From NCBI RefSeq assembly GCF_015999465.1, contig NZ_CP065534.1, positions 2,852,001 through 2,916,000 of the forward strand: DNA of 64,000 nt, given 5' to 3'. The DNA is from Lonsdalea populi. GTDB taxonomy: Bacteria > Pseudomonadota > Gammaproteobacteria > Enterobacterales > Enterobacteriaceae. Positions 6,401 to 17,203 of the stretch are shown in pieces. The first letter of the stretch is position 1. Each line of letters begins with the position of its first letter. Below the pieces are notes generated by a model. It was not told the DNA's origin, did no database searches, and was given only the letters and a program-made list of their open reading frames with translations. A program made the translations under genes and the position numbers.

Positions 6401-8113
6401 TCAGATTTCAACGTTGATACTGAAACCTGCGGTCGCGCCGGAGGTGTGGAAAGCGTCGGGTTTCACGAGCGGCACGCCCGCGAACAGGTCATAGCTGATC
6501 TGCTGCCAAAGAGCCCCGCGGATCCCCACGGCGGAGCCAGCCAGTTGACGCCCCACCAGGTCGCGAGCGCCGGGACCGCCCACGCGCCCATAGTCCAGTG
6601 CCAAATAGAGTTCATGTCCCCGAGATCGGATGTTCCAGCCTAATTCGTTACGCCAGACAATCCCCCGCTCGCCGGACAACATCTGCTCGCCATCAAAGCC
6701 GCGCACCGTGTAACGCCCAGCGATAGCCAGGCGCTCCTGTGGGGTTAAGGCATTGGCGCTCCACTGCCCGCGCACGCTGGTGTAATAACGCAGAGGTTGA
6801 TCGACTACGGAGAAAGGCTGATTGATACTCACGTCGCCAAGCAGCAATCCCGTGCGCGCACTGCCGCTATGCGTTGTTTCTTCCGGCGCAGGCGTCGCGC
6901 CGAATGCGCCCGTCCCGCGACGCCAGCTGACATTGGCATCGACCGTGGCATCGCCGAAGTAACTGCGCTGATTGACGCCCAGCTCCCAGCCCGCGGTGCG
7001 GCGGCGCTGCTGTTCGATCTCAATGCCATTCACGGAGTTGGTGGCGTATTTGCGGTAGGTCCGCAGGTTGAGTGTGGTTTTGTGTGATTGATCACGGAAA
7101 AGTAATCTGGAGACGGTCGCCACGACGTTGTCGCTTTTCCCGTCGTAGCTCAGGACTTCATTCGCGTTGGGAATATTTTGATGGTAGGTATAGTCGCTAT
7201 AGTTCGCCGAAAACGCCCAATAGCCCACCGGGAAGAAGTAATTCAGCGTGTGAGAACGATTGCCGTATGGCCCCTGAGCAAACATATCTCCGCCGAGATT
7301 GGCGTAAAACAGATCGTTTTGTGCGAAAGGCGCATCGATGGCCAGGGTGGCGTTTCCCAGGTAACGGCCGGTGCTTTCAGAACCGCTGTCATCAAGCCCA
7401 AAACTCAGGCGCACGGGACGTTTTTCTTGCCAATTGACCAGCAAATCGCTGGCGCCCTCCTGCTCTCCTGGAACAATCTGAATATCCGCACTGGCACTGG
7501 GGACACGCTTTAGGTTTTCCAGCCCCTGTTCGACATCCCGCAAATTGAGTATATCGCCACGCGATGCCGGGATGGCATTCCACAACCGCCCACGCCACGA
7601 CGCCGGTTGACCGAAACGAATATCGCCGATACGGCCCGGCTGAAGGGTGAGCGTAAGAATCCCTTGGGTTAAGTCCTGCTCCTGCGCCATCACTCGCGTT
7701 GTCACGTAACCTTTGGCAAGAATGGCATTTTGCACTTTGTTGATGGCAACCATGATTCCCTGACTGCCAAGGCACCGGCCGTTGGCATCGGCGGCAGATG
7801 CCAGAGCCCACAGGAATTGCTCGGCAGCCTCACCCTGTAACGCGATGTGATGAATGGTAAAACAGGGAGTTTCCTGTGCCGGGTAGCCCGGCAACGCGGC
7901 GTCAGGCATTCGCAGGCGGACGTCGGCCTGCGGGGTGTTCTGCTCTCGCAGTGCGCGCTCTCGCTCTTGCTGTCGTAGCTGCTCACGCGCATCGATAGCC
8001 GCGGCTCCTTGCATGGGCGCATCAGGGATGTCTGCCGCCGTCACCGAAGAAGCATAGGCAAGCACGATTGCAGCCAACACAGCGGAGGCCGACTTTGAAA
8101 AAGAAAAACACAT
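6401..8113 (-). CDS. Two-partner secretion outer membrane transporter TpsB (ShlB/FhaC/CdiB family)
   Basis: This 570-residue protein has a signal peptide ending near VTA-AD, a glutamine/arginine-rich linker (QLRQQERERALREQN) and a POTRA_2-type domain around residues 75-155. A long beta-barrel follows, beginning near LSFGLDDSGSESTG. The barrel contains YTVRGFDG, the conserved VRGF/Y motif of the Omp85/TpsB superfamily, followed by RGIVWRNELGW. Length fits the family (about 550-590). It recognises the TPS domain of the partner and exports it through the outer membrane. It lies upstream of the tpsA gene on the same strand with a 66-base gap, the usual tpsB-tpsA order of cdi loci, so the two are probably cotranscribed. 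An AAGGGA ribosome binding site precedes the ATG. Which TpsB subfamily it belongs to is less certain than the family itself. Confidence 0.95.
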   Translation of the reverse strand: MCFSFSKSASAVLAAIVLAYASSVTAADIPDAPMQGAAAIDAREQLRQQERERALREQNTPQADVRLRMPDAALPGYPAQETPCFTIHHIALQGEAAEQFLWALASAADANGRCLGSQGIMVAINKVQNAILAKGYVTTRVMAQEQDLTQGILTLTLQPGRIGDIRFGQPASWRGRLWNAIPASRGDILNLRDVEQGLENLKRVPSASADIQIVPGEQEGASDLLVNWQEKRPVRLSFGLDDSGSESTGRYLGNATLAIDAPFAQNDLFYANLGGDMFAQGPYGNRSHTLNYFFPVGYWAFSANYSDYTYHQNIPNANEVLSYDGKSDNVVATVSRLLFRDQSHKTTLNLRTYRKYATNSVNGIEIEQQRRRTAGWELGVNQRSYFGDATVDANVSWRRGTGAFGATPAPEETTHSGSARTGLLLGDVSINQPFSVVDQPLRYYTSVRGQWSANALTPQERLAIAGRYTVRGFDGEQMLSGERGIVWRNELGWNIRSRGHELYLALDYGRVGGPGARDLVGRQLAGSAVGIRGALWQQISYDLFAGVPLVKPDAFHTSGATAGFSINVEI

Positions 8114-8335
8114 CAGAAAAATCCCTTTAATGAAAAGATTTCGCTCACTAATCGTAACATTGTGTAAATTTCGACGTATTATTCATTCGGTGGTATTAAA
8201 AGCAAGCATATTATGTGCGCTCTACAAGCAAATCCTCCCACACTCCGCTATCCCCCTGGAAGCCAAAAAGATCGCCCACATCTCCTCCACCGTCTCTCAA
8301 AACCCAAGCTCCCCGACCGCTTTGCGCCAAACTAA

Positions 8336-8351
8336 TGTGAAGAAAATCACA
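8336..8351. promoter_or_regulatory. Putative CRP binding site 1 (TGTGA-N6-TCACA)
   Basis: The sequence is TGTGAAGAAAATCACA, a perfect match to the CRP half-sites with the correct six-base spacer. It lies about 290 bases before the first PTS gene and about 220 bases before tpsB, so it could act on either side. Seen directly; occupancy is inferred. Confidence 0.65.
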
Positions 8352-8470
8352 AAAGCAGCATCTGTTTTTAGGGGCGAAACGCCCGTTTCGATCGGGCAAA
8401 GGTTCTATAACCAAAACAGATGTAAAACAGATAATTACTAAGAGTAACTAGACGTTCAGAGAGAAAATAA

Positions 8471-8486
8471 CGTGACGCTCATCACA
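8471..8486. promoter_or_regulatory. Putative CRP binding site 2 (CGTGA-N6-TCACA)
   Basis: The sequence is CGTGACGCTCATCACA, with one mismatch to the ideal CRP palindrome. It lies about 140 bases before the PTS operon start codon, a plausible position for class I or II activation. Together with site 1 it suggests catabolite control of the sugar operon. Confidence 0.6.
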
Positions 8487-8627
8487 AATTCCAAGGCTTA
8501 GAAGGCTTGTCAAGCCTTGCCCTCTGCGGGAAATGTTGCATAAGTGTGACATGCTCCAAAAAAATTAATCCCCTCATCTCTACTATCAATCCCATAGCCA
8601 CTGAGGAGCTTTCATCCGAGGTCAACC

Positions 8628-9608
8628 ATGAGAATAGGATTGGTACTAAGCGGCGGCGATGTCAGCGGAATGAATAATTTTCTATTTCAGATCAACCTGA
8701 TGACTGAATCTGAAATGGTTATTTTCGACGGTGGCATTAATGGGCTGATTGAAAATCGCTGCAAAGACATCACGCGCCGCGACCTGGTCGATCTCTCGCT
8801 CTCTTCCGTGCCGTTGATCGCGTCAGGGAGGAAAGAGGATAAATGCCGGAAATCCGACTACGAGAAAATCGTCAGGAACATTCGTCATAAAAAACTGGAC
8901 TGTTTGATCATGGGCGGCGGCGACGGTTCTTTTCAGTTTTTGAAGACATTGAGCGGCTACGGCGTCTGCTGCTACGGCGTGGGCATGACGATCGATAACG
9001 ACATCGACGGCGACAGTTACACCATCGGATTTTCCACCGCCTGCGAACAGGTTATTAGTGAAGTCGCCAAATTACGGAATACCGGACGCGGCCTGCCGGG
9101 ACGCATATTCATCATCGAACTGCTCGGCGGCTATTGCGGCGAACTCACATTACAGGCGGCATTAAAAAGTAATGCGGATATTGCGCTTATTCCTGAGTCT
9201 CTTTGGGACATTGATATTCTGGCGGAAACGATTAAACAAAAAATCGCCATACAGAACAGCGTCATTATTTTGTGTTCCGAGGGCTATACCAAAGAATATA
9301 CCCCGGGGTTTCAGGGGGCGATTGATACCATGATTGGAAAAATAGAACACAAGATAGGGATACGAATTCGAAAAACGATTCTGGGATACGGTTTAAGAAA
9401 TGGCGCGCCGACGGGAGAGGAAATTATTCAAGGCACTATTCTCGCACAAGAGGTCGTCAGATGTATTCACAGCGGCCTGACCAATAAAATTATTGTCATC
9501 AACAATAGTAATAAAGCCATACCGATAGATCTTGAAAACATTAAAAAACGATTGGTGGACGAAGAAAGTTATCTCTACAAACTCGCTAAAGTCAATCACC
9601 TTATCTGA
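8628..9608 (+). CDS. ATP-dependent phosphofructokinase-family sugar-phosphate kinase
   Basis: This 326-residue protein is close to PfkA length and carries its signatures: SGGDVSGMN (8-16, PfkA SGGDAPGMN), GGDGS (97-101) and TIDNDI (121-126), where D123 matches the catalytic base. The GGDGS form, rather than GGDDT, points to ATP as donor rather than pyrophosphate. The rest is divergent from housekeeping PfkA. As the first gene of a PTS operon that also encodes a class I ketose-bisphosphate aldolase, it probably adds a second phosphate to the sugar phosphate made by the PTS, in the role LacC plays in tagatose metabolism. The substrate cannot be read from the sequence. The ATG at 8628 follows a GAGG ribosome binding site. 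Confidence 0.85.
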   Translation: MRIGLVLSGGDVSGMNNFLFQINLMTESEMVIFDGGINGLIENRCKDITRRDLVDLSLSSVPLIASGRKEDKCRKSDYEKIVRNIRHKKLDCLIMGGGDGSFQFLKTLSGYGVCCYGVGMTIDNDIDGDSYTIGFSTACEQVISEVAKLRNTGRGLPGRIFIIELLGGYCGELTLQAALKSNADIALIPESLWDIDILAETIKQKIAIQNSVIILCSEGYTKEYTPGFQGAIDTMIGKIEHKIGIRIRKTILGYGLRNGAPTGEEIIQGTILAQEVVRCIHSGLTNKIIVINNSNKAIPIDLENIKKRLVDEESYLYKLAKVNHLI

Positions 9609-9617
9609 GGTAATATT

Positions 9618-9908
9618 ATGCTTAATGTACTCTGCGTATGTGGCTGCGGTCTCGGTTCAAGTTTTGCTATTGAAATGAGCGCCAAGTCCGTATTACAAAA
9701 ACTCGCCATTGATGCAAATATCGATCACACCACGGTATCAGAAGCGTCATCCTACAAATACGACATTATTCTTACCCAAAAAATGTTTGCGGACATTTTA
9801 ACTTCGGATGCCAGCGAAGAGGATAAGAAAAAAGTCATCATATTAAATAAGCTCACCGACAAAAAAGAAATTGAAGAAAAAATCCTCGCGTATCTGAAAT
9901 CTATCTAA
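9618..9908 (+). CDS. PTS enzyme IIB, ascorbate/UlaB type
   Basis: This 96-residue protein opens with LNVLCVCGCGLGSS. The CGxGxGSS loop is the phosphocysteine loop of PTS_IIB enzymes related to UlaB and GatB, with C8 as the predicted phosphorylated residue. It relays phosphate from the IIA histidine to the sugar at the IIC transporter. It starts 9 bases after the kinase gene, with a TGAGGT ribosome binding site overlapping that stop codon, and is followed 14 bases later by the IIC gene, so the genes are cotranscribed. Substrate is unknown; the UlaA-like partner sets the subfamily, not the sugar. Confidence 0.88.
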   Translation: MLNVLCVCGCGLGSSFAIEMSAKSVLQKLAIDANIDHTTVSEASSYKYDIILTQKMFADILTSDASEEDKKKVIILNKLTDKKEIEEKILAYLKSI

Positions 9909-9922
9909 AAATGAGGTGACCT

Positions 9923-11260
9923 GTGGACGCTATTATTCATTTTATTGTGACTGATTTTCTAGGCCAGGCTTCGATATTAATTGCGTTAATCGCGATGATC
10001 GGTCTTATTCTGCAAAAAAAATCCGTCGGCAAAACCGTGGAGGGGACGTTTAAAACCTTGCTGGGGTTTCTGATCATGATGGCGGGTATCAATATTATTG
10101 TGGCCGCCCTGACCTTTCTCAATGATATTTTTACCCAAGGATTCGGTATGCAGGGATATATCACGGATGTGGCGGCCATTGCCGGCGTCGCCAACCGTGA
10201 GCTGGGTTCCGAAGTTGCGCTGACGCTGCTGGTGATTTTTGCCGTCAACATCCTCATCGCGCGGATCACTCCGTTCAAATATATCTTCCTCACCGGTCAG
10301 GCGTTGCTCTGGATGGCGACCATCGGCACCGTCATCGGCTATAAAGCGGGGCTGACGGGCGCTACGTTGATTCTGACCGGCGGGATCTTCGGCGGCGTCA
10401 TGGCGGTACTGATGCCGGCCATCGCCCAACCCATCGTCCGCAAGATTACGGACTCGGACGACGTGGCGCTCGGGCATTTCTGCACCATCGGCTACCTCGT
10501 TCAGGCCGCGGTGGCGCGAGCGATCGGCAAAAACTCGCGCTCCACCGAAGATCTGGAACTGCCCGATAACTTTAAATTTCTGCAGGACACCTATCTGTCG
10601 ATGGCCGTCATCATGGTGCCGATGTACATCATTCCCGCCCTCTTTGCCGGGTCGGCGTACATCGCGCAGTTCGCGGGCGAAACCAACTACATCATGTATG
10701 CGTTCATGCAGTCCATGCAGTTCGTTGCCGGGGTTTTCGTACTCTACAGCGGCGTCCGCCTGCTGCTGAATGAGCTGGTGCCCGCCTTCCGCGGTATCGC
10801 CATGCGGCTGGTGCCCAACGCCAAACCCGCGCTCGACTGCCCGGTGCTGTTCCCGTATGCCCCGAATGCCGTCATCGTCGGCTTCCTGGCCACCACCGTC
10901 GGGTCGATTATCGGGATGCTGGTCTTCCCATTGTTCGGACTCGCCATGATCCTGCCGGGCCTGCTGACCAACTTCTTCGCGGGCGGTGCCGCCGGGGTCT
11001 TCGGTAACGCGATGGGAGGCAGAAAAGGCGCCATCATCGGCGGCGTGGTTCACGGCCTGTTCATTACCTTTCTACCGGCGATATTGGTGCCGCTGCTCGA
11101 AACCTTCGGCTTTAAAGGCGTGACGTTCAGCGATTCAGACGTCATCAGCACCGGCCTGGTGCTCGGCCATGCCTTCCAGCGTGACTGGCCGTTCGTCATC
11201 GGCTTTATCGCCTTCGTCATCATGATTGTCTGGCTGGCGAACCGAAAACTGGGCAAATAA
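9923..11260 (+). CDS. PTS enzyme IIC, UlaA/SgaT-family sugar transporter
   Basis: This 445-residue polytopic membrane protein has about ten or more hydrophobic segments and UlaA-like features: TVEGTFKTLLGFLIMMAG near the N terminus, the region around NILIARITPFKYIFLTG, and GMLVFPLFGLAMILPGLL with a glycine-rich stretch toward the C terminus. It forms the sugar channel of the PTS and works with the separate IIB and IIA proteins of this operon. Translation starts at GTG (9923) behind a TGAGGTGA ribosome binding site. UlaA-family permeases are known for ascorbate and are related to galactitol permeases, but the enzymes encoded alongside this one are not ascorbate-pathway enzymes, so a different substrate is likely. 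Confidence 0.9.
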   Translation: MDAIIHFIVTDFLGQASILIALIAMIGLILQKKSVGKTVEGTFKTLLGFLIMMAGINIIVAALTFLNDIFTQGFGMQGYITDVAAIAGVANRELGSEVALTLLVIFAVNILIARITPFKYIFLTGQALLWMATIGTVIGYKAGLTGATLILTGGIFGGVMAVLMPAIAQPIVRKITDSDDVALGHFCTIGYLVQAAVARAIGKNSRSTEDLELPDNFKFLQDTYLSMAVIMVPMYIIPALFAGSAYIAQFAGETNYIMYAFMQSMQFVAGVFVLYSGVRLLLNELVPAFRGIAMRLVPNAKPALDCPVLFPYAPNAVIVGFLATTVGSIIGMLVFPLFGLAMILPGLLTNFFAGGAAGVFGNAMGGRKGAIIGGVVHGLFITFLPAILVPLLETFGFKGVTFSDSDVISTGLVLGHAFQRDWPFVIGFIAFVIMIVWLANRKLGK

Positions 11261-11305
11261 GCGGTTAAGTCAGCGGGTTATCCCATCACGATGTGAGGAG
11301 GAAAT

Positions 11306-11584
11306 ATGTTCGCGAAATTAAAACATCTCTTTCATTCAGAAAAGACGCCGGGGAGACCGGAGAATGAAAATAGCGAAGAGGCAGAAAGTCTGCATGCGGA
11401 AATAACACAGCTGGAATCCGGACTACAGAGCACTCCGTCGGATACCGAGATTCAAAAACAGCTGATGGTGAAATATACCCAGGCGGTGAAAATATATTCA
11501 GCCTATCAGCCGTATCGACATCGGGTTGATGATATTTTCCTGAGAATGGATGAGTTGAGAAATACGATCCGAAAAAATATATGA
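11306..11584 (+). CDS. Uncharacterised 92-residue protein of the PTS operon
   Basis: I do not recognise this protein. It is small, hydrophilic and mostly predicted helical, with an acidic stretch (ENENSEEAESLHAEI) that could form a coiled coil and a more basic C terminus. There is no signal peptide or membrane segment. The gene sits between the IIC and IIA genes, 45 bases after IIC with its own GGAGGAAA ribosome binding site and 6 bases before the IIA start, so it is clearly translated as part of the operon. It could be an adaptor for the PTS components or the fused kinase-aldolase; that is speculation from position only. Confidence 0.7.
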   Translation: MFAKLKHLFHSEKTPGRPENENSEEAESLHAEITQLESGLQSTPSDTEIQKQLMVKYTQAVKIYSAYQPYRHRVDDIFLRMDELRNTIRKNI

Positions 11585-11590
11585 GGCGAT

Positions 11591-12028
11591 ATGACGATTA
11601 AATCATTTCTTGCTCAAAATCCGTATATCCAGGTCAGCATTAGCGTTAACGCCTGGCAGGACATTATCGAGAAAGCGGCAAAGCCCTTAATTGAGGGTGG
11701 CTTTGTCACCGCTGAATATCCTAAAGCGGTTATCGATAATACGTTGAAATATGGCGCCTATTATGTTTTTGATGAGGGGATAGCCATTCCACACGCCAGA
11801 CCGGAATGCGGTGTGATTAAAGACTGTTTCAGTATGGTCACGCTTGCGACGCCCGTGTCTATTAACGGCAGCGAGCCGGTCGATATTATCGTGATGTTTG
11901 GCGGCATTAACGGAGACTCGCATATTACGGAAGGCATCGCTTCCATCGTCGGCCTATTGGATCATGAGGACACGTTAAGTCGAATAAGACACGCCACCAC
12001 CGTTGATGAAATACTTGGATTACTATGA
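11591..12028 (+). CDS. PTS enzyme IIA, UlaC / mannitol-fructose (PTS_EIIA_2) type
   Basis: This 145-residue protein has the PTS_EIIA_2 fold signature DEGIAIPHARPE, with H68 as the predicted phosphorylated histidine, and the downstream VDIIVMFGGINGDSH block seen in UlaC-type IIA proteins. It receives phosphate from HPr and passes it to the IIB cysteine. The ribosome binding site (TGAGGCGAT) overlaps the upstream stop codon, and its own stop overlaps the start of the next gene by four bases (ATGA), showing tight translational coupling. Confidence 0.9.
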   Translation: MTIKSFLAQNPYIQVSISVNAWQDIIEKAAKPLIEGGFVTAEYPKAVIDNTLKYGAYYVFDEGIAIPHARPECGVIKDCFSMVTLATPVSINGSEPVDIIVMFGGINGDSHITEGIASIVGLLDHEDTLSRIRHATTVDEILGLL

Positions 12029-13509
12029 AAACACTGATTTTGGTTAATGGTATACCGGCATCAGGAAAAAGCTACGTGGCTAATCAGGTGGCAGATGCTT
12101 TTCATTTTCCGGTTTTAAGTATCGATGAAATTAAAGAACCTTTTATGGTGCAATTCGCCGATATTATTGACAGGCCGTTGAATCGCCAGCTGGGTTATTC
12201 CGCTTATGCGGCGATGTTCAATATCGTAAGAAATTCGCCATCTGACACGGTATTTATTTTAGATGCCTGGTTTGGATTCCGGGATAAATCAGTCTTAGCC
12301 GAATACCTTGCTTTATGCGGCTGCGAGTCCGTGATTGAAATATGGAATCAGATTTCGCCCGCACGGGTGGCAGAGCGTTATTCGCAGCGCTGTCACCGCC
12401 GTGTGAAAGGACACCCCGGCGAAGAATATATCCCCGAATTAATCGCATTAGCGGAAAGGGCGCAGCCCATGGCGTTCGGCCCACTATTCACCGTGGATCA
12501 GGATAAGGATATCGAATCAGAGCGTCTTATTTCCTGGGTCGGCGAGCGCCTTAGTCATCCTGAAACCTACTCTTTATCTTCTACGAGGAATCAATCCATG
12601 AACAAAATGACAACAGCAGAACGTCGTGGTTATCAAATGATTTGCGATAACACAGGTGCCATGATGGTGGTGGCCTGCGATCAACGCGGCGGTATGAGAA
12701 CGCTATTAGCCGATACGCCGGAAGAACAGGCGAAAATCAGCAATGAAACGCTGGGAAAAACCAAATACGATATTACTCAATATCTGGCCTCGGAGGCGGG
12801 CTGCGTGCTGGTCGATCCGCTCTGCGCCGTGCCCGGCATCATTGATGAAGGCATTGTGCCGCGCAACACCGGCTTGCTCATCGGCCTTGACGCCTCCGGC
12901 TGGGATACCTCGCCCGAAGGCTACCGCATTTCGAAAATGGTCGAAGGCATCAACGCCCGCAAAGTGCGCGAGCTGGGGGCGACCGGTGGAAAAATCATGA
13001 TCTATCTGCGCATGGATACGCCACAAGCCAATACCGCTAATCTGGCGACACTCCGCAACGTTATCGCCGATTTCGCCCGCGAAGATCTGTTTCTGGTCGT
13101 CGAGTTCCTCACCTACCCGCTGGAAAATGAAAGCAGGGAAGCGTACCAGCGCAACCTTCCTCATCTGATTCAGGAAGGCTGCCGCGCTTGTATTGACTGT
13201 GGCTCCAAGGTGCTGAAGATCCCGTATCCGGGAACAGAAGAAGCCTGCGCCGCCGTCACGGAGATCTGCGGAGACGTACCGTGGGCCGTCTTGTCCGCCG
13301 GCGTCGACCACGAAACGTTCCTGCAGCAGGTCGACGTTGCGCTTCGACAGGGCGCATCTGGCGTCATCGCGGGCCGTTCACTGTGGAAAGACTGTATCTC
13401 TCTTGACCGCAGCGTCACTCGCGAAAAATTGACCACCATCGCCGTGCCCCGTTTGCGGGACATTCAGCGGCTGCTGGTGAAATATCGGCCACAGCGCATT
13501 AGCGCCTGA
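12025..13509 (+). CDS. Fusion of P-loop kinase-like domain and class I tagatose-bisphosphate-type aldolase (LacD/YihT family)
   Basis: The 494-residue frame has two modules. Residues 1 to about 185 hold a P-loop NTPase with Walker A GIPASGKS (about 9-16) and SIDEIKEPF, resembling small-molecule kinases of the AAA_33/gluconate kinase type. Residues 192-494 match LacD/YihT class I aldolases: ACDQRGGMR, the expected Schiff-base lysine K398 in KVLKIPYPG, and WAVLSAGVDHETF plus GASGVIAGRSLWK near the C terminus. The predicted reaction is cleavage of a ketose 1,6-bisphosphate-like compound to two trioses. The junction is odd: a GAGGAA ribosome binding site and ATG at 12598 lie exactly where a stand-alone aldolase would start, so both the fusion and a free aldolase may be made. 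The N-terminal kinase substrate is unknown. The gene overlaps the IIA gene by four bases. Confidence 0.87.
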   Translation: MKTLILVNGIPASGKSYVANQVADAFHFPVLSIDEIKEPFMVQFADIIDRPLNRQLGYSAYAAMFNIVRNSPSDTVFILDAWFGFRDKSVLAEYLALCGCESVIEIWNQISPARVAERYSQRCHRRVKGHPGEEYIPELIALAERAQPMAFGPLFTVDQDKDIESERLISWVGERLSHPETYSLSSTRNQSMNKMTTAERRGYQMICDNTGAMMVVACDQRGGMRTLLADTPEEQAKISNETLGKTKYDITQYLASEAGCVLVDPLCAVPGIIDEGIVPRNTGLLIGLDASGWDTSPEGYRISKMVEGINARKVRELGATGGKIMIYLRMDTPQANTANLATLRNVIADFAREDLFLVVEFLTYPLENESREAYQRNLPHLIQEGCRACIDCGSKVLKIPYPGTEEACAAVTEICGDVPWAVLSAGVDHETFLQQVDVALRQGASGVIAGRSLWKDCISLDRSVTREKLTTIAVPRLRDIQRLLVKYRPQRISA

Positions 13510-13527
13510 TCGCCGTTTTCAGGCCTA

Positions 13528-13560
13528 GGCCGACGCCGATGACGGCGTTCGGCCGCTTTT
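13528..13560 (+). terminator. Hairpin between aldolase and HAD genes
   Basis: GGCCGACGCCG pairs with CGGCGTTCGGCC (one bulged base) around an ATGA loop, followed by GCTTTT. It lies 18 bases after the fusion gene stop and just before the HAD gene ribosome binding site. It may reduce rather than abolish read-through into the HAD gene. Confidence 0.55.
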
Positions 13561-13573
13561 GGGAGAGGAAGGA

Positions 13574-14281
13574 ATGAAAGAGGGCGTGTCATTGATGATT
13601 TTCGACTGTGACGGCGTACTCGTCGACTCAGAAATCATCGGTATCGAACTGACGGTGTCCCTGCTGAATCAACAGGGAGTGAATATCGGGCTTGATGAGT
13701 TCACGCATCGCTACAGCGGGCTTGCCTGGGATGAACTGATCGATCAGATCCGCGCTGATAAGGGGGCTACGATCCCTCCCCACCTTCGTCAGGCGTTTTA
13801 CCCGTTGCTGATGAACGCCTTCGCCGACAGGTTGGTCAGTATCGCCGGCGTACAGGAGACCGTGTCCCAGATTCCCCTTCCCCGCTGTATCTGCTCCAAT
13901 TCGAGTTCGGAACAGCTGGATTTTATGCTGACGAAGGTGGGCCTGAAGCCTCTTTTCACGCCGCACATCTTCTCAGCAATGGATCTGGGGCCGGACCGCG
14001 GCAAACCCTGTCCCGATATTTTTCTGCATGCGGCTCAGGTTATGAATACCTCACCTGAAAATACGCTCGTTATCGAAGATTCCGTTCATGGCGTAACGGC
14101 GGCGAAACGCGCGGGGATGTTGGTGGTCGGCTTTACCGGCGGCGCGCATACCACGCCTTGTCATCGAACGCGGCTGTTCGACGCTGGGGCCGATCGGGTG
14201 ATCGACGCCATGCCGCAACTCATTGACGAGATACGCCGTCTCGGGCATCGCTCAACGCCGAGCCACGGCCGCCATCGATGA
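13574..14281 (+). CDS. HAD-superfamily hydrolase, beta-phosphoglucomutase / sugar phosphatase type
   Basis: This 235-residue protein has HAD motif I FDCDGVLVDSE (D11 nucleophile, D13), motif II at CSNSSSEQ, the motif III lysine in RGKPCPD and motif IV at VIEDSVHGV, with a helical cap between motifs I and II. This is subfamily IA, as in YqaB/YfbT sugar-phosphate phosphatases and beta-phosphoglucomutase. The ATG at 13574 is preferred because AGAGGAAGGA sits just before it; an upstream TTG is unlikely. It follows the PTS operon by 64 bases behind a hairpin, so it is likely an accessory gene that relieves sugar-phosphate build-up or acts on a pathway intermediate. The exact substrate is not visible. 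Confidence 0.85.
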   Translation: MKEGVSLMIFDCDGVLVDSEIIGIELTVSLLNQQGVNIGLDEFTHRYSGLAWDELIDQIRADKGATIPPHLRQAFYPLLMNAFADRLVSIAGVQETVSQIPLPRCICSNSSSEQLDFMLTKVGLKPLFTPHIFSAMDLGPDRGKPCPDIFLHAAQVMNTSPENTLVIEDSVHGVTAAKRAGMLVVGFTGGAHTTPCHRTRLFDAGADRVIDAMPQLIDEIRRLGHRSTPSHGRHR

Positions 14282-14671
14282 TAAAACCGCTCTTCTCCCA
14301 GGCGCGCGCTCTGGACCAATAAGGCCCACTCCCCACAACTGATGCCTCCACCTGTCTCTTCTTGTTTCTCCGCATCCCATACGATGAGTTCTAACGAAAA
14401 CATTAATTTATGACGCGCATCAAACTTAAGGGAAGTTTGCCGATTTTTGATAGTGGCATTCACTGAACCGTCGCAACATGCCTATAGCCCGCGGGCGATA
14501 GCAGCGCCGAAACAGGGACAGATTCATGCGATTAATCTGTCCGCCGTGCGACAGGTAAAACGATGACCGCACGGGTGAGGGTGGTCGGCACACCCGCTGG
14601 AAAAGCGATACCGCGTTTCAACAGCCATCGATGCGCGGATGGGGTCTAAACCTATCCTGGAGGATTCACGT
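14282..14671. promoter_or_regulatory. Non-coding gap upstream of the aldehyde dehydrogenase gene
   Basis: No convincing gene lies in these 390 bases. A perfect 9-base inverted repeat, GGACAGATT and AATCTGTCC, spans 14516-14542. It could be an operator for the EutR-like regulator encoded downstream or a weak terminator. I found no cobalamin riboswitch pattern here. Confidence 0.45.
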
Positions 14672-16051
14672 ATGGAACAGTCAATATTCGAGCCCGATGC
14701 CCCGGCATGTCCGGCGTCTAAATTCGACATGCAATACGGTGTTTTTGCCTCATTGGATGAGGCGGTGGATGCGGCGACACATGCGCAGAAACGGCTGGAT
14801 AATATGGCCTTGCGGCACAGAGTCATTGAGGCGATCCGTCAGACCGGCGAACGCTATGCGCAGGTGCTGGCGGAAATGGCCGTAGCCGAAACCGGCATGG
14901 GACGCGTCACGGACAAATACGCCAAAAATGTTTCCCAGGCGCGCAGCACGCCGGGCACGGAAAGTCTGGCGGCACAGGCGATCACCGGCGACAACGGGAT
15001 GACGCTGATCGAAAACGCGCCCTGGGGCGTGGTGGCCTCGGTCACGCCTTCGACGAACCCTGCCGCCACCGTCATCAATAACGCCATCAGTATGATCGCT
15101 GCGGGCAACAGCATCGTATTCGCGCCGCATCCTTCGGCGAAGAACGTCTCCCTGCACGCCATCAGCCTGCTGAACAGGGCCATTGTCGCCGCTGGCGGCC
15201 CTGAGAATCTGCTGGTCACCGTCGAAGATCCTAACATTGAAACCGCTCAGCGCCTGTTTTGCCATCCGGGCATTAGTCTGCTGGTCGTGACCGGCGGCGA
15301 AGCGGTGGTGGAGGCCGCGCGCAAATATACGGACAAACGCCTGATTGCCGCCGGCGCAGGCAACCCGCCCGTCGTGGTGGATGAAACCGCAGACATCGCC
15401 CGTGCCGCCCGCGATATCGTGCGCGGCGCCTCCTTCGACAACAACATCATCTGCGTCGATGAGAAAGTGGCTATCGTGGTTGACAGCGTGGCCGACGCGT
15501 TACTGGCCGACATGCAGCGGCATCAGGCGGTGTTGCTGACGAGCGAGCAGGTCGAACAGCTGTTGCCTCTGCTGCTGACCGATATCGACGAAAACGGGAA
15601 AGGCCGCCCCAGTCGCGACTGGGTGGGGCGTGATGCGGCGAAGATCGCCGCGGCCATCGGTCTGGACGTCGGCGACAACACGCGGTTACTGCTGGCGGAA
15701 ACGCCTCCGGATCACCCCTTCGCCGTGACGGAGATGATGATGCCGGTGCTGCCCGTCGTGCGCGTGGCCGACGTAAACGAAGCCATCGAACTGGCGGTGC
15801 AGTTGGAGGGAGGATGTCGCCATACGGCGGCGATGCATTCGACCGACATCACCCACCTGCACAAAATGGCCAGCCGCATCAACACCAGCATCTTCGTTAA
15901 GAACGGCCCCTGCATCGCCGGGCTGGGATTCGGCGGCGAGGGCTGTACGTCCATGACCATTTCCACGCCGACCGGAGAAGGGGTGACGTCGGCGCGCACT
16001 TTTGTACGTATCCGCCGTTGTGTGATGGTGGATATGTTCCGCATCGTCTAG
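14672..16051 (+). CDS. CoA-acylating aldehyde dehydrogenase, EutE/PduP-like
   Basis: This 459-residue protein closely follows EutE/PduP: ETGMG, VTPSTNP, NAISMIAAGNSIVFAPHP, GAGNPPVVVDETAD, a catalytic cysteine at C261 in NNIICVDEK, FVKNGPCIAGLG and TPTGEGVTSARTF at the C terminus. Such enzymes convert an aldehyde plus CoA and NAD+ to acyl-CoA. The ATG at 14672 is chosen because TGGAGGA lies eight bases upstream. The protein begins directly with the enzyme domain region and lacks the amphipathic N-terminal helix that directs PduP into microcompartments, and no shell protein genes are nearby, so it is probably cytosolic. It is followed by an EutR-like regulator gene. The physiological aldehyde (acetaldehyde, propionaldehyde, lactaldehyde) cannot be told from sequence. 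Confidence 0.9.
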   Translation: MEQSIFEPDAPACPASKFDMQYGVFASLDEAVDAATHAQKRLDNMALRHRVIEAIRQTGERYAQVLAEMAVAETGMGRVTDKYAKNVSQARSTPGTESLAAQAITGDNGMTLIENAPWGVVASVTPSTNPAATVINNAISMIAAGNSIVFAPHPSAKNVSLHAISLLNRAIVAAGGPENLLVTVEDPNIETAQRLFCHPGISLLVVTGGEAVVEAARKYTDKRLIAAGAGNPPVVVDETADIARAARDIVRGASFDNNIICVDEKVAIVVDSVADALLADMQRHQAVLLTSEQVEQLLPLLLTDIDENGKGRPSRDWVGRDAAKIAAAIGLDVGDNTRLLLAETPPDHPFAVTEMMMPVLPVVRVADVNEAIELAVQLEGGCRHTAAMHSTDITHLHKMASRINTSIFVKNGPCIAGLGFGGEGCTSMTISTPTGEGVTSARTFVRIRRCVMVDMFRIV

Positions 16052-16066
16052 TTTTCGTATGCTAAA

Positions 16067-16099
16067 CGTCCCTGCCGTTTGCACCCACCGGCAGGGACG
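16067..16099 (+). terminator. Hairpin between aldehyde dehydrogenase and eutR-like gene
   Basis: An 11-base stem (CGTCCCTGCCG with CGGCAGGGACG) and an 11-base loop lie 15 bases after the dehydrogenase stop. There is no T run after it, so it may stabilise or attenuate the transcript rather than end it. Confidence 0.4.
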
Positions 16100-16162
16100 A
16101 CGCTTACCCATCGGATCATTGCGCCCTGTGCGGCGCAGAGGTTTTACCGGAGGAAACGACAG

Positions 16163-17203
16163 ATGAAAACAGGTCATCACCTTCATCCGCATCAGCTTGA
16201 CACCCAGCCGACACCTCCTGAAGCCGTCCAGGCGTTACTGAGTCCAACTCGTCCTATGCACCAGAGTTACACCCAGGACGTTTACGCCCAGTCCCGCACC
16301 ATCACCGCCTGGCAACAGCTATACGATCAGGTCTCGCCCGGTCATTTTCGCGGCGAGCTACAGGAACTGCTGTTGGACGGCATGCAACTCTGTCACGAAT
16401 ACACTAACCTTGCCCTGCGGCAGTCCTGCATGGCCTGGGCAGGATCGCTGTGGTTCGGTATTCCCTCGACCCAGGAGAACATGGGGTTTATCAACGCACA
16501 GCCGCTGGACAAGTACGGCATTGCCGTCAGCCCCGGCGGGAAAGAGTTTGAGCTTTCGACGCCGGACGACTTTTCCATTCTGGGCGTCGTGATATCGCAT
16601 GAGGTGCTCCATCAATACATCGGCACGCTCAGCGATCCGCAGTGGCTGACCGAACGGCTGACTCGCGGCACCACGCTGCAAATGGATCTCAGCAACAAGG
16701 AACAGCTCTGCGATTACATCCGCCACGCGCTGTGGTACAGCTGCCATTTCCCGCAGGTGATGAAAAAAGGCAATACGCAGAAGCTGTTGAACCATAACCT
16801 TCTTACGATGCTGATGTCGTTTTTGGAAAACGTTCAGCCGCCCACGGAACCGGCGCAAAATCATCATCACCGCAAGCTGATCGCCTTTGCGCGGGAGTAT
16901 GTATTGAGCCAAACCTCGGAGCCGGTCACCGTGCTGGACCTGTGCAACCGGCTGCACGTCAGCCGCCGCACCCTGCAAAATGCCTTTCAGAACGTGTTGG
17001 GCATCGCCCCCAACGCCTGGCTTAAAATCATCCGGCTCAACGCGGTGCGGCGCGAGTTGGTTGACCCAGGCACCCCGCATCGCACGGTGCAAGATGCCGC
17101 GATGCAGTGGGGATTCTGGCATTTGAGCCAGTTCGCCATCGACTATCAGAAATTGTTCAACGAGAAACCTTCGCAGACCCTGCGGCGGCACTCTCCGCAT
17201 TGA
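16163..17203 (+). CDS. AraC-family transcriptional regulator, EutR-like
   Basis: This 346-residue protein aligns by eye with E. coli EutR over its length: TITAWQQLYDQVSPGHFRGE, ALRQSCMAWAGSLWFGIP, the ELSTPDDFSILGVV block, and the C-terminal HTH with EPVTVLDLCNRLHVSRRTLQ and QWGFWHLSQFAIDYQ. EutR activates the ethanolamine operon in response to ethanolamine and adenosylcobalamin. The ATG at 16163 follows CGGAGGAA; a longer frame starting at 16079 has no good ribosome binding site and lacks similarity. Here it is paired with an EutE-like dehydrogenase only, so its effector or target set may differ from the E. coli protein. Confidence 0.88.
   Translation: MKTGHHLHPHQLDTQPTPPEAVQALLSPTRPMHQSYTQDVYAQSRTITAWQQLYDQVSPGHFRGELQELLLDGMQLCHEYTNLALRQSCMAWAGSLWFGIPSTQENMGFINAQPLDKYGIAVSPGGKEFELSTPDDFSILGVVISHEVLHQYIGTLSDPQWLTERLTRGTTLQMDLSNKEQLCDYIRHALWYSCHFPQVMKKGNTQKLLNHNLLTMLMSFLENVQPPTEPAQNHHHRKLIAFAREYVLSQTSEPVTVLDLCNRLHVSRRTLQNAFQNVLGIAPNAWLKIIRLNAVRRELVDPGTPHRTVQDAAMQWGFWHLSQFAIDYQKLFNEKPSQTLRRHSPH

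Follow-up and report, generated by a model that had tools for sequence, protein, structure and literature searches.

A conserved operon of Lonsdalea populi and other enterobacteria that combines a Ula-type phosphotransferase system with a candidate ketose-bisphosphate pathway

Relation to described systems

The window analysed here, the whole 64,000-nucleotide stretch of the Lonsdalea populi genome (3.86 Mb), contains an operon (8628-14281, + strand) predicted to take up a ketohexose, phosphorylate it a second time and split the bisphosphate. It encodes, in this order, a phosphofructokinase (PFK)-like protein, the IIB and IIC subunits of a phosphotransferase system (PTS), a 92-residue protein (hereafter U92), the IIA subunit, a P-loop kinase (KIN), a class I aldolase (ALD) and a HAD phosphatase (Table 1). 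Several described systems share parts of this set. In the LacC/LacD tagatose-6-phosphate pathway of Gram-positive cocci, a second phosphorylation is likewise followed by the action of a LacD-type class I aldolase, but the operon lacks both the PfkB-family kinase LacC and the LacAB isomerase, and ALD scores well under the LacD equivalog TIGR01232 (56.7 vs 432.2 bits). The YihT/YihV route for sulfofructose has a YihT-type class I aldolase in common with the operon, which, however, contains no sulfosugar genes and has a PTS in place of other transporters. The PTS of the L-ascorbate ula operon belongs to the same superfamily, and IIC exceeds the cut-off of the ascorbate-IIC model NF006919 (487.2 vs 380) as well as that of NF009551 'PTS sugar transporter subunit IIC' (793.6 vs 657), a model without a named sugar. 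In contrast, the ascorbate IIBC/IIB models nearest to IIB (23.4 vs 138; 48.3 vs 687) and the UlaC-type model PRK10372 nearest to IIA (100.9 vs 187) are not reached, so that the three subunits do not jointly qualify as an ascorbate PTS, and no ulaD-ulaG-type enzyme is present among the operon proteins.

The tagKTH/GatY system combines a fructose-type IIABC, the PfkB-family kinase TagK and the class II aldolase GatY, whereas the operon has a Ula/GAT-type IIABC, an aldolase of class I and two kinases, one of PF00365 and one of the P-loop type. The operon is not a member of that system, its proteins being those of PF00365, PF02302, PF03611, PF00359 and PF01791. The logic is nevertheless similar: in Klebsiella and Bacillus licheniformis, tagKTH/GatY likewise relies on PTS uptake, a second kinase and the splitting of tagatose 1,6-bisphosphate, as described in PMC10101011. 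According to the same paper, in the galactitol and N-acetylgalactosamine routes with GatY/KbaY, tagatose 6-phosphate is phosphorylated by PfkA and then cleaved, and E. coli PfkA converts tagatose 6-phosphate to tagatose 1,6-bisphosphate (PMC10101011). These routes use the housekeeping PfkA, whereas the operon holds a dedicated second PF00365 protein. An earlier note on this DNA had stated that the gene set matches no nameable pathway. As to the chemistry, this goes too far, LacC/LacD and tagKTH/GatY being familiar cases of it, but the combination of protein families may be new; no description of the operon was found in open-licence PMC papers, a result that says little about whether one exists.

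Conservation of the operon and exchange of the aldolase

The operon is real and not a chance assembly, because it is kept across genera. A scan of named genomes yielded 25 loci, including 22 with the architecture of the window, two from Raoultella without ALD and one from an alphaproteobacterium. The search for the same gene order elsewhere, suggested in the earlier note, thus found it in many genera, namely Lonsdalea, which provides the nearest named relatives in the comparison, Erwinia, Pectobacterium, Samsonia, Winslowiella, Raoultella, Klebsiella, Izhakiella and others; the gene set occurs in many plant- and gut-associated enterobacteria. The genes flanking the operon differ between genomes, and in Sodalis praecaptivus the operon is plasmid-borne. 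Among plasmid records, 25 encode proteins at least 60% identical to ALD, of which six were opened together with L055 from the KIN list; a plasmid DNA search with the whole region produced EutE matches only. Some strains are counted twice via two collections (for example, L033/L097, L037/L098, L040/L090 and L041/L102), so loci outnumber independent strains.

In a census of 198 genomes of the family to which the window belongs, with every KIN context inspected, KIN was found in 37, and in each of these the same cluster encodes a ketose-bisphosphate aldolase. The clusters fall into three types: class I aldolase with PFK (11), class II aldolase with PFK (17), and a SorC-type regulator gene divergent from ALD-KIN-IIA-IIB-IIC, with no orthologous PFK (9). 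The aldolase is therefore of class I in 20 genomes and of class II in 17 (L058 and L059 are among the contexts inspected). The U92 profile detects 28 of the 198 genomes, exactly those with PFK-containing operons of either aldolase class; U92 has no Pfam match at E 0.01 and no NCBIfam match. All nine SorC-type clusters encode a 101-residue TPR-like protein after IIC, and its homology with U92 was considered but could not be shown (hhalign probabilities of 5% and 22%). The HAD phosphatase is optional: 13 of the 24 class I operons encode it.

The two Raoultella loci encode, between IIC and U92, a 280-residue class II aldolase that exceeds the cut-off of the ketose-bisphosphate aldolase model TIGR00167 (268.6 vs 215.6); it reaches no fructose- or tagatose-specific model, and its closest solved structures are fructose- and tagatose-bisphosphate aldolases. 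ALD itself exceeds the gathering score of PF01791 (63.6 vs 23.8 bits), and the solved structures closest to it are 8tnf, LacD (3iv3, E 3.2e-17) and YihT (1to3), along with 7ag7. In the alignment with LacD, lysine 207 of ALD falls on the stretch DVLKVEVP, whose lysine forms the Schiff base, and this position is a lysine in all 51 loci compared. The proposal of the earlier note, that the sugar is phosphorylated on entry, phosphorylated again and split to trioses with no isomerase, is well supported, since in other genera the class I aldolase of this operon is replaced by a ketose-bisphosphate aldolase of class II. Two further observations concern the class II operons: in Klebsiella pneumoniae 176 (L051, 7637-8688) the PFK gene is split over two open reading frames (ORFs), and a DNA search of the E. 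coli collection with a class II-type stretch (L089) found nothing.

Predicted reactions, kinases and substrate

The pathway that we propose begins with the Ula-type PTS, which would bring in a ketohexose and phosphorylate it, probably at position 6. The PFK-like protein, KIN or both would then add the second phosphate, producing a ketose 1,6-bisphosphate, from which the aldolase would release dihydroxyacetone phosphate and glyceraldehyde 3-phosphate; the HAD protein, where present, may ease the build-up of sugar phosphates. We assign this reading a probability of roughly 0.6. The sequences themselves show the gene content and its conservation, the exchange of aldolase class and the conservation of catalytic positions and CRP-like sites; the reactions and the substrate are all predicted from them.

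The PFK-like protein is proposed as a candidate ketose-6-phosphate 1-kinase. It is distinct from the PfkA of the same genome, the other PF00365 protein, which scores 368.5 bits compared to 196.7 for the operon protein, and it falls short of the PfkA equivalog TIGR02482 (156.2 vs 371.35 bits). In the numbering of E. coli PfkA, residues R72, D103, G104, T125, D127, D129, R162, R243 and R252 are kept, M169 is replaced by L, R171 by G or A and H249 by Y or F, and E222 falls in an alignment gap. The ATP-type GGDGS and TIDND motifs are retained, and three of the kept arginines are 6-phosphate binders in E. coli PfkA. One of the nine SorC-type clusters (L086, 9988-10983) contains, between IIA and IIB, a different PFK-like gene, with 28% identity, in which GGGGS replaces GGDGS and SIDND replaces TIDND; judging from these motifs, its activity may differ from that of ATP-type PFKs. 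Elsewhere in the host genome, there are six PfkB-family proteins over the cut-off, one other PF01791 protein and one class II aldolase.

Clusters outside the enterics provide a link to KIN and to the substrate. Ten such loci were opened, seven of them named alphaproteobacterial loci and three others from the phylum. ALD of these loci is 65-73% identical, and ALD identity between the enteric PTS clusters and alphaproteobacteria is 63-74%. In nine of the ten, ALD lies beside a ROK-family kinase with KIN at its C-terminus, and in the tenth, from Roseinatronobacter, the ROK kinase and KIN are separate overlapping genes. Since ROK-KIN is found next to ALD, the first sugar kinase would take the place of the enteric PTS. 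A SorC-type regulator is present in all ten loci, and nine contain an ortholog (at least 69% identical to that of L053) of a CUT2 sugar-binding protein. Transporters vary across the clusters and include the PTS, CUT2 ABC and, in L049, CUT1-type ABC. The CUT2 binding protein matches PDB 5dkv (E 2.6e-160, 80-81% identity), which is listed as an ABC transporter solute-binding protein of Agrobacterium vitis (Avis_5339, TARGET EFI-511225); the fold model of the CUT2 protein itself was poor (mean pLDDT 64.3) and was used only for retrieving structure titles. The ligand of 5dkv is presumed to be alpha-D-tagatopyranose; it was found neither in open-licence PMC papers nor in structure-library titles.

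Several additional genes were observed at these loci. In rhizobial L049 (8221-10473) and L053 (7348-8853), genes for a PdxJ-like protein, an odd companion for a ketose pathway, and for a HAD phosphatase adjoin the ALD/ROK-KIN cluster. Four of the ten loci (L050, L052, L053 and L069) encode, close to the binding protein, a homolog of Gfo/Idh/MocA oxidoreductases (67-100% identical to that of L053); three of the four also have annotated isomerase/epimerase, alpha/beta hydrolase and RPE-like genes. Downstream of the Roseinatronobacter cluster (L044, 12707-15071) lie genes for another DeoC/LacD aldolase and for an enzyme of the mannitol-dehydrogenase type.

These comparisons make D-tagatose or a closely related sugar the leading candidate for uptake by the enteric operons, given the binding protein, with its presumed ligand, and the resemblance of ALD to LacD; we regard D-tagatose itself as possible rather than probable. 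A broader suggestion, which we make tentatively, is that KIN is related to neither PfkA nor PfkB and represents a novel family of kinases for ketose phosphates, with a P-loop fold like that of adenylate kinase. Under this scheme, ROK-KIN of Rhizobiales might convert a free ketohexose to the 1,6-bisphosphate on one polypeptide and enteric KIN might work with the PTS, the module having taken on both aldolase classes and two kinds of transporters.

A number of points count against the proposed pathway or its substrate. The replacement of H249 in the PFK-like protein is one, and another is that PFK-containing operons have two candidate second kinases, one beyond need. What the binding protein binds may differ from the sugar that the enteric PTS takes up. 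Negative D-tagatose results are reported for Brenneria izbisi, Erwinia teleogrylli, E. psychrophila, E. magellanica and Pantoea alhagi, which may or may not carry the operon. Furthermore, PMC9503840 records no acid from D-tagatose for one strain of Pectobacterium carotovorum and two of P. brasiliense, and likewise for two of P. punjabense and two reference strains; other strains of P. carotovorum and P. brasiliense carry the operon (L029 and L042). For carriers, all reports on tagatose use that were found are negative, PMC5390963 dealing with another family.

The alternatives differ mostly in where they depart from this pathway. The same chemistry might act on another sugar, such as D-psicose, a sorbose, a ketose derivative or a glycoside, with D-tagatose restricted to the alphaproteobacterial clusters, and here we consider the odds to be even: the D-tagatose-negative Pectobacterium species, the unlike transporter types of the two groups and an IIC model that names no sugar are in its favour, whereas KIN and ALD are orthologous between the groups and the sole ligand clue, the presumed one of 5dkv, is D-tagatose. 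It is improbable that the aldolase instead cuts a ketose 1-phosphate into dihydroxyacetone phosphate and a free aldehyde, for which KIN would be the triose kinase. The presence of KIN in all 37 aldolase clusters, including eight of the nine SorC-type ones that have no PFK in the cluster, would fit this, as would the many small molecules phosphorylated by structural relatives of KIN, but this scheme leaves no role for the PFK-like protein, which 28 of the 37 clusters and also L086 encode, and KbaY/FbaA-type class II aldolases as well as LacD and YihT use substrates that are anionic at both ends. Finally, KIN could be a regulator or an RNA or protein kinase, with the PFK-like protein alone yielding the bisphosphate, which we consider unlikely.

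Gene features, regulation and biological meaning

Table 1. Features of the operon and of its upstream region (positions in the window)
Feature	Position	Strand	Remarks
CRP-like site 1, TGTGAAGAAAATCACA	8336..8351	+	perfect half-sites; ~290 bases 5' of first gene; same place in relatives
CRP-like site 2, CGTGACGCTCATCACA	8471..8486	+	one mismatch; ~157 bases 5' of first gene
PFK-like kinase, 326 aa	8628..9608	+	PF00365, 196.6 bits (gathering 30.9)
PTS IIB, 96 aa	9618..9908	+	PF02302 PTS_IIB, 41.9 bits
PTS IIC, 445 aa, EIIC-GAT family	9923..11260	+	GTG start; PF03611, 413.3 bits
U92, helical, 92 aa	11306..11584	+	in every class I/PFK and class II/PFK operon of the family sample
PTS IIA, 145 aa	11591..12028	+	PF00359 EIIA_2, 89.7 bits
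KIN, P-loop kinase	12025..12597	+	Walker A GIPASGKS; frame continues into ALD in this genome only
ALD, class I LacD/YihT-like ketose-bisphosphate aldolase, 303 aa	12598..13509	+	own ATG; PF01791 DeoC/LacD
HAD phosphatase	13559..14281	+	TTG start as listed; PF00702/PF13419

KIN and ALD were described in the earlier note as a kinase-aldolase fusion. An open frame of 494 codons indeed spans both, its N-terminal part remaining below the Pfam threshold for AAA_33 (26.1 vs 27 bits), but a conserved fusion is rejected: the two are separate in all 50 comparison loci, and the window is the only one of the 51 loci holding both in which they share one open frame. Among the 120 relatives listed (of 1896), none exceeds 305 residues. 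The codon at 12592-12594, CAA in the window, is a TAA stop at the same place in L. britannica and L. iberica, just 5' of the aldolase ATG, and in two L. quercina loci the kinase terminates in a different frame. Given these comparisons, the read-through is either peculiar to this genome, represented by one assembly, or an error in its sequence. As GAGGA is kept upstream of the ATG at 12598, ALD may still be made as a separate protein. The HAD protein has its best NCBIfam match below the cut-off (YieH-type PRK10563, 120 vs 211).

No regulator gene is kept alongside the class I operons, and the best reading of the upstream region is that the operon is under CRP control through the two candidate sites. 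By count alone such sites are unremarkable in the window (2, with a chance mean of 1.35 and 37 of 100 shuffles reaching that number); the sites are credible because of position and conservation. Within 500 bases 5' of the PFK gene, each of the 52 upstream regions has one or more sites that deviate by no more than one mismatch (1.7% of base-shuffled regions do), 34 contain at least two, and the position of site 2 is kept in most. These regions are mutually related and hence not independent, and the count excludes L025 (contig end), L044 (no PFK) and L051 (split PFK). Rfam produced three matches in 8100-9000, with E of 0.35-0.65, all far under the gathering scores.

Downstream of the operon (14639-17203), the window encodes an EutE-like aldehyde dehydrogenase (686.3 vs 403 bits) and an EutR-like regulator (464.8 vs 319); there is no EutB (PF06751) match in the host genome, and the two genes are either a remnant or a reused pair. 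The adjacent EutE, EutR and SDR genes were rejected as members of the pathway, being present in L034 but replaced by others in L023, L024 and L035. In L034 (L. quercina ATCC 29281, 13645-15050) the EutE gene appears as two overlapping ORFs, suggesting a frame break. Just upstream of the operon (6401-8113, - strand) lies a gene for a ShlB/FhaC-type two-partner secretion transporter that is kept in four named Lonsdalea loci.

About one-fifth of the family sample (37 of 198 genomes) has a PTS-linked ketose pathway that lacks an annotated substrate. The swap of aldolase class within a fixed operon amounts to a clean natural experiment that predicts a ketose 1,6-bisphosphate as the intermediate. 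If KIN is indeed the second kinase, it would add a third fold to the makers of ketose bisphosphates, and the enzymes of the operon could serve work on rare sugars.

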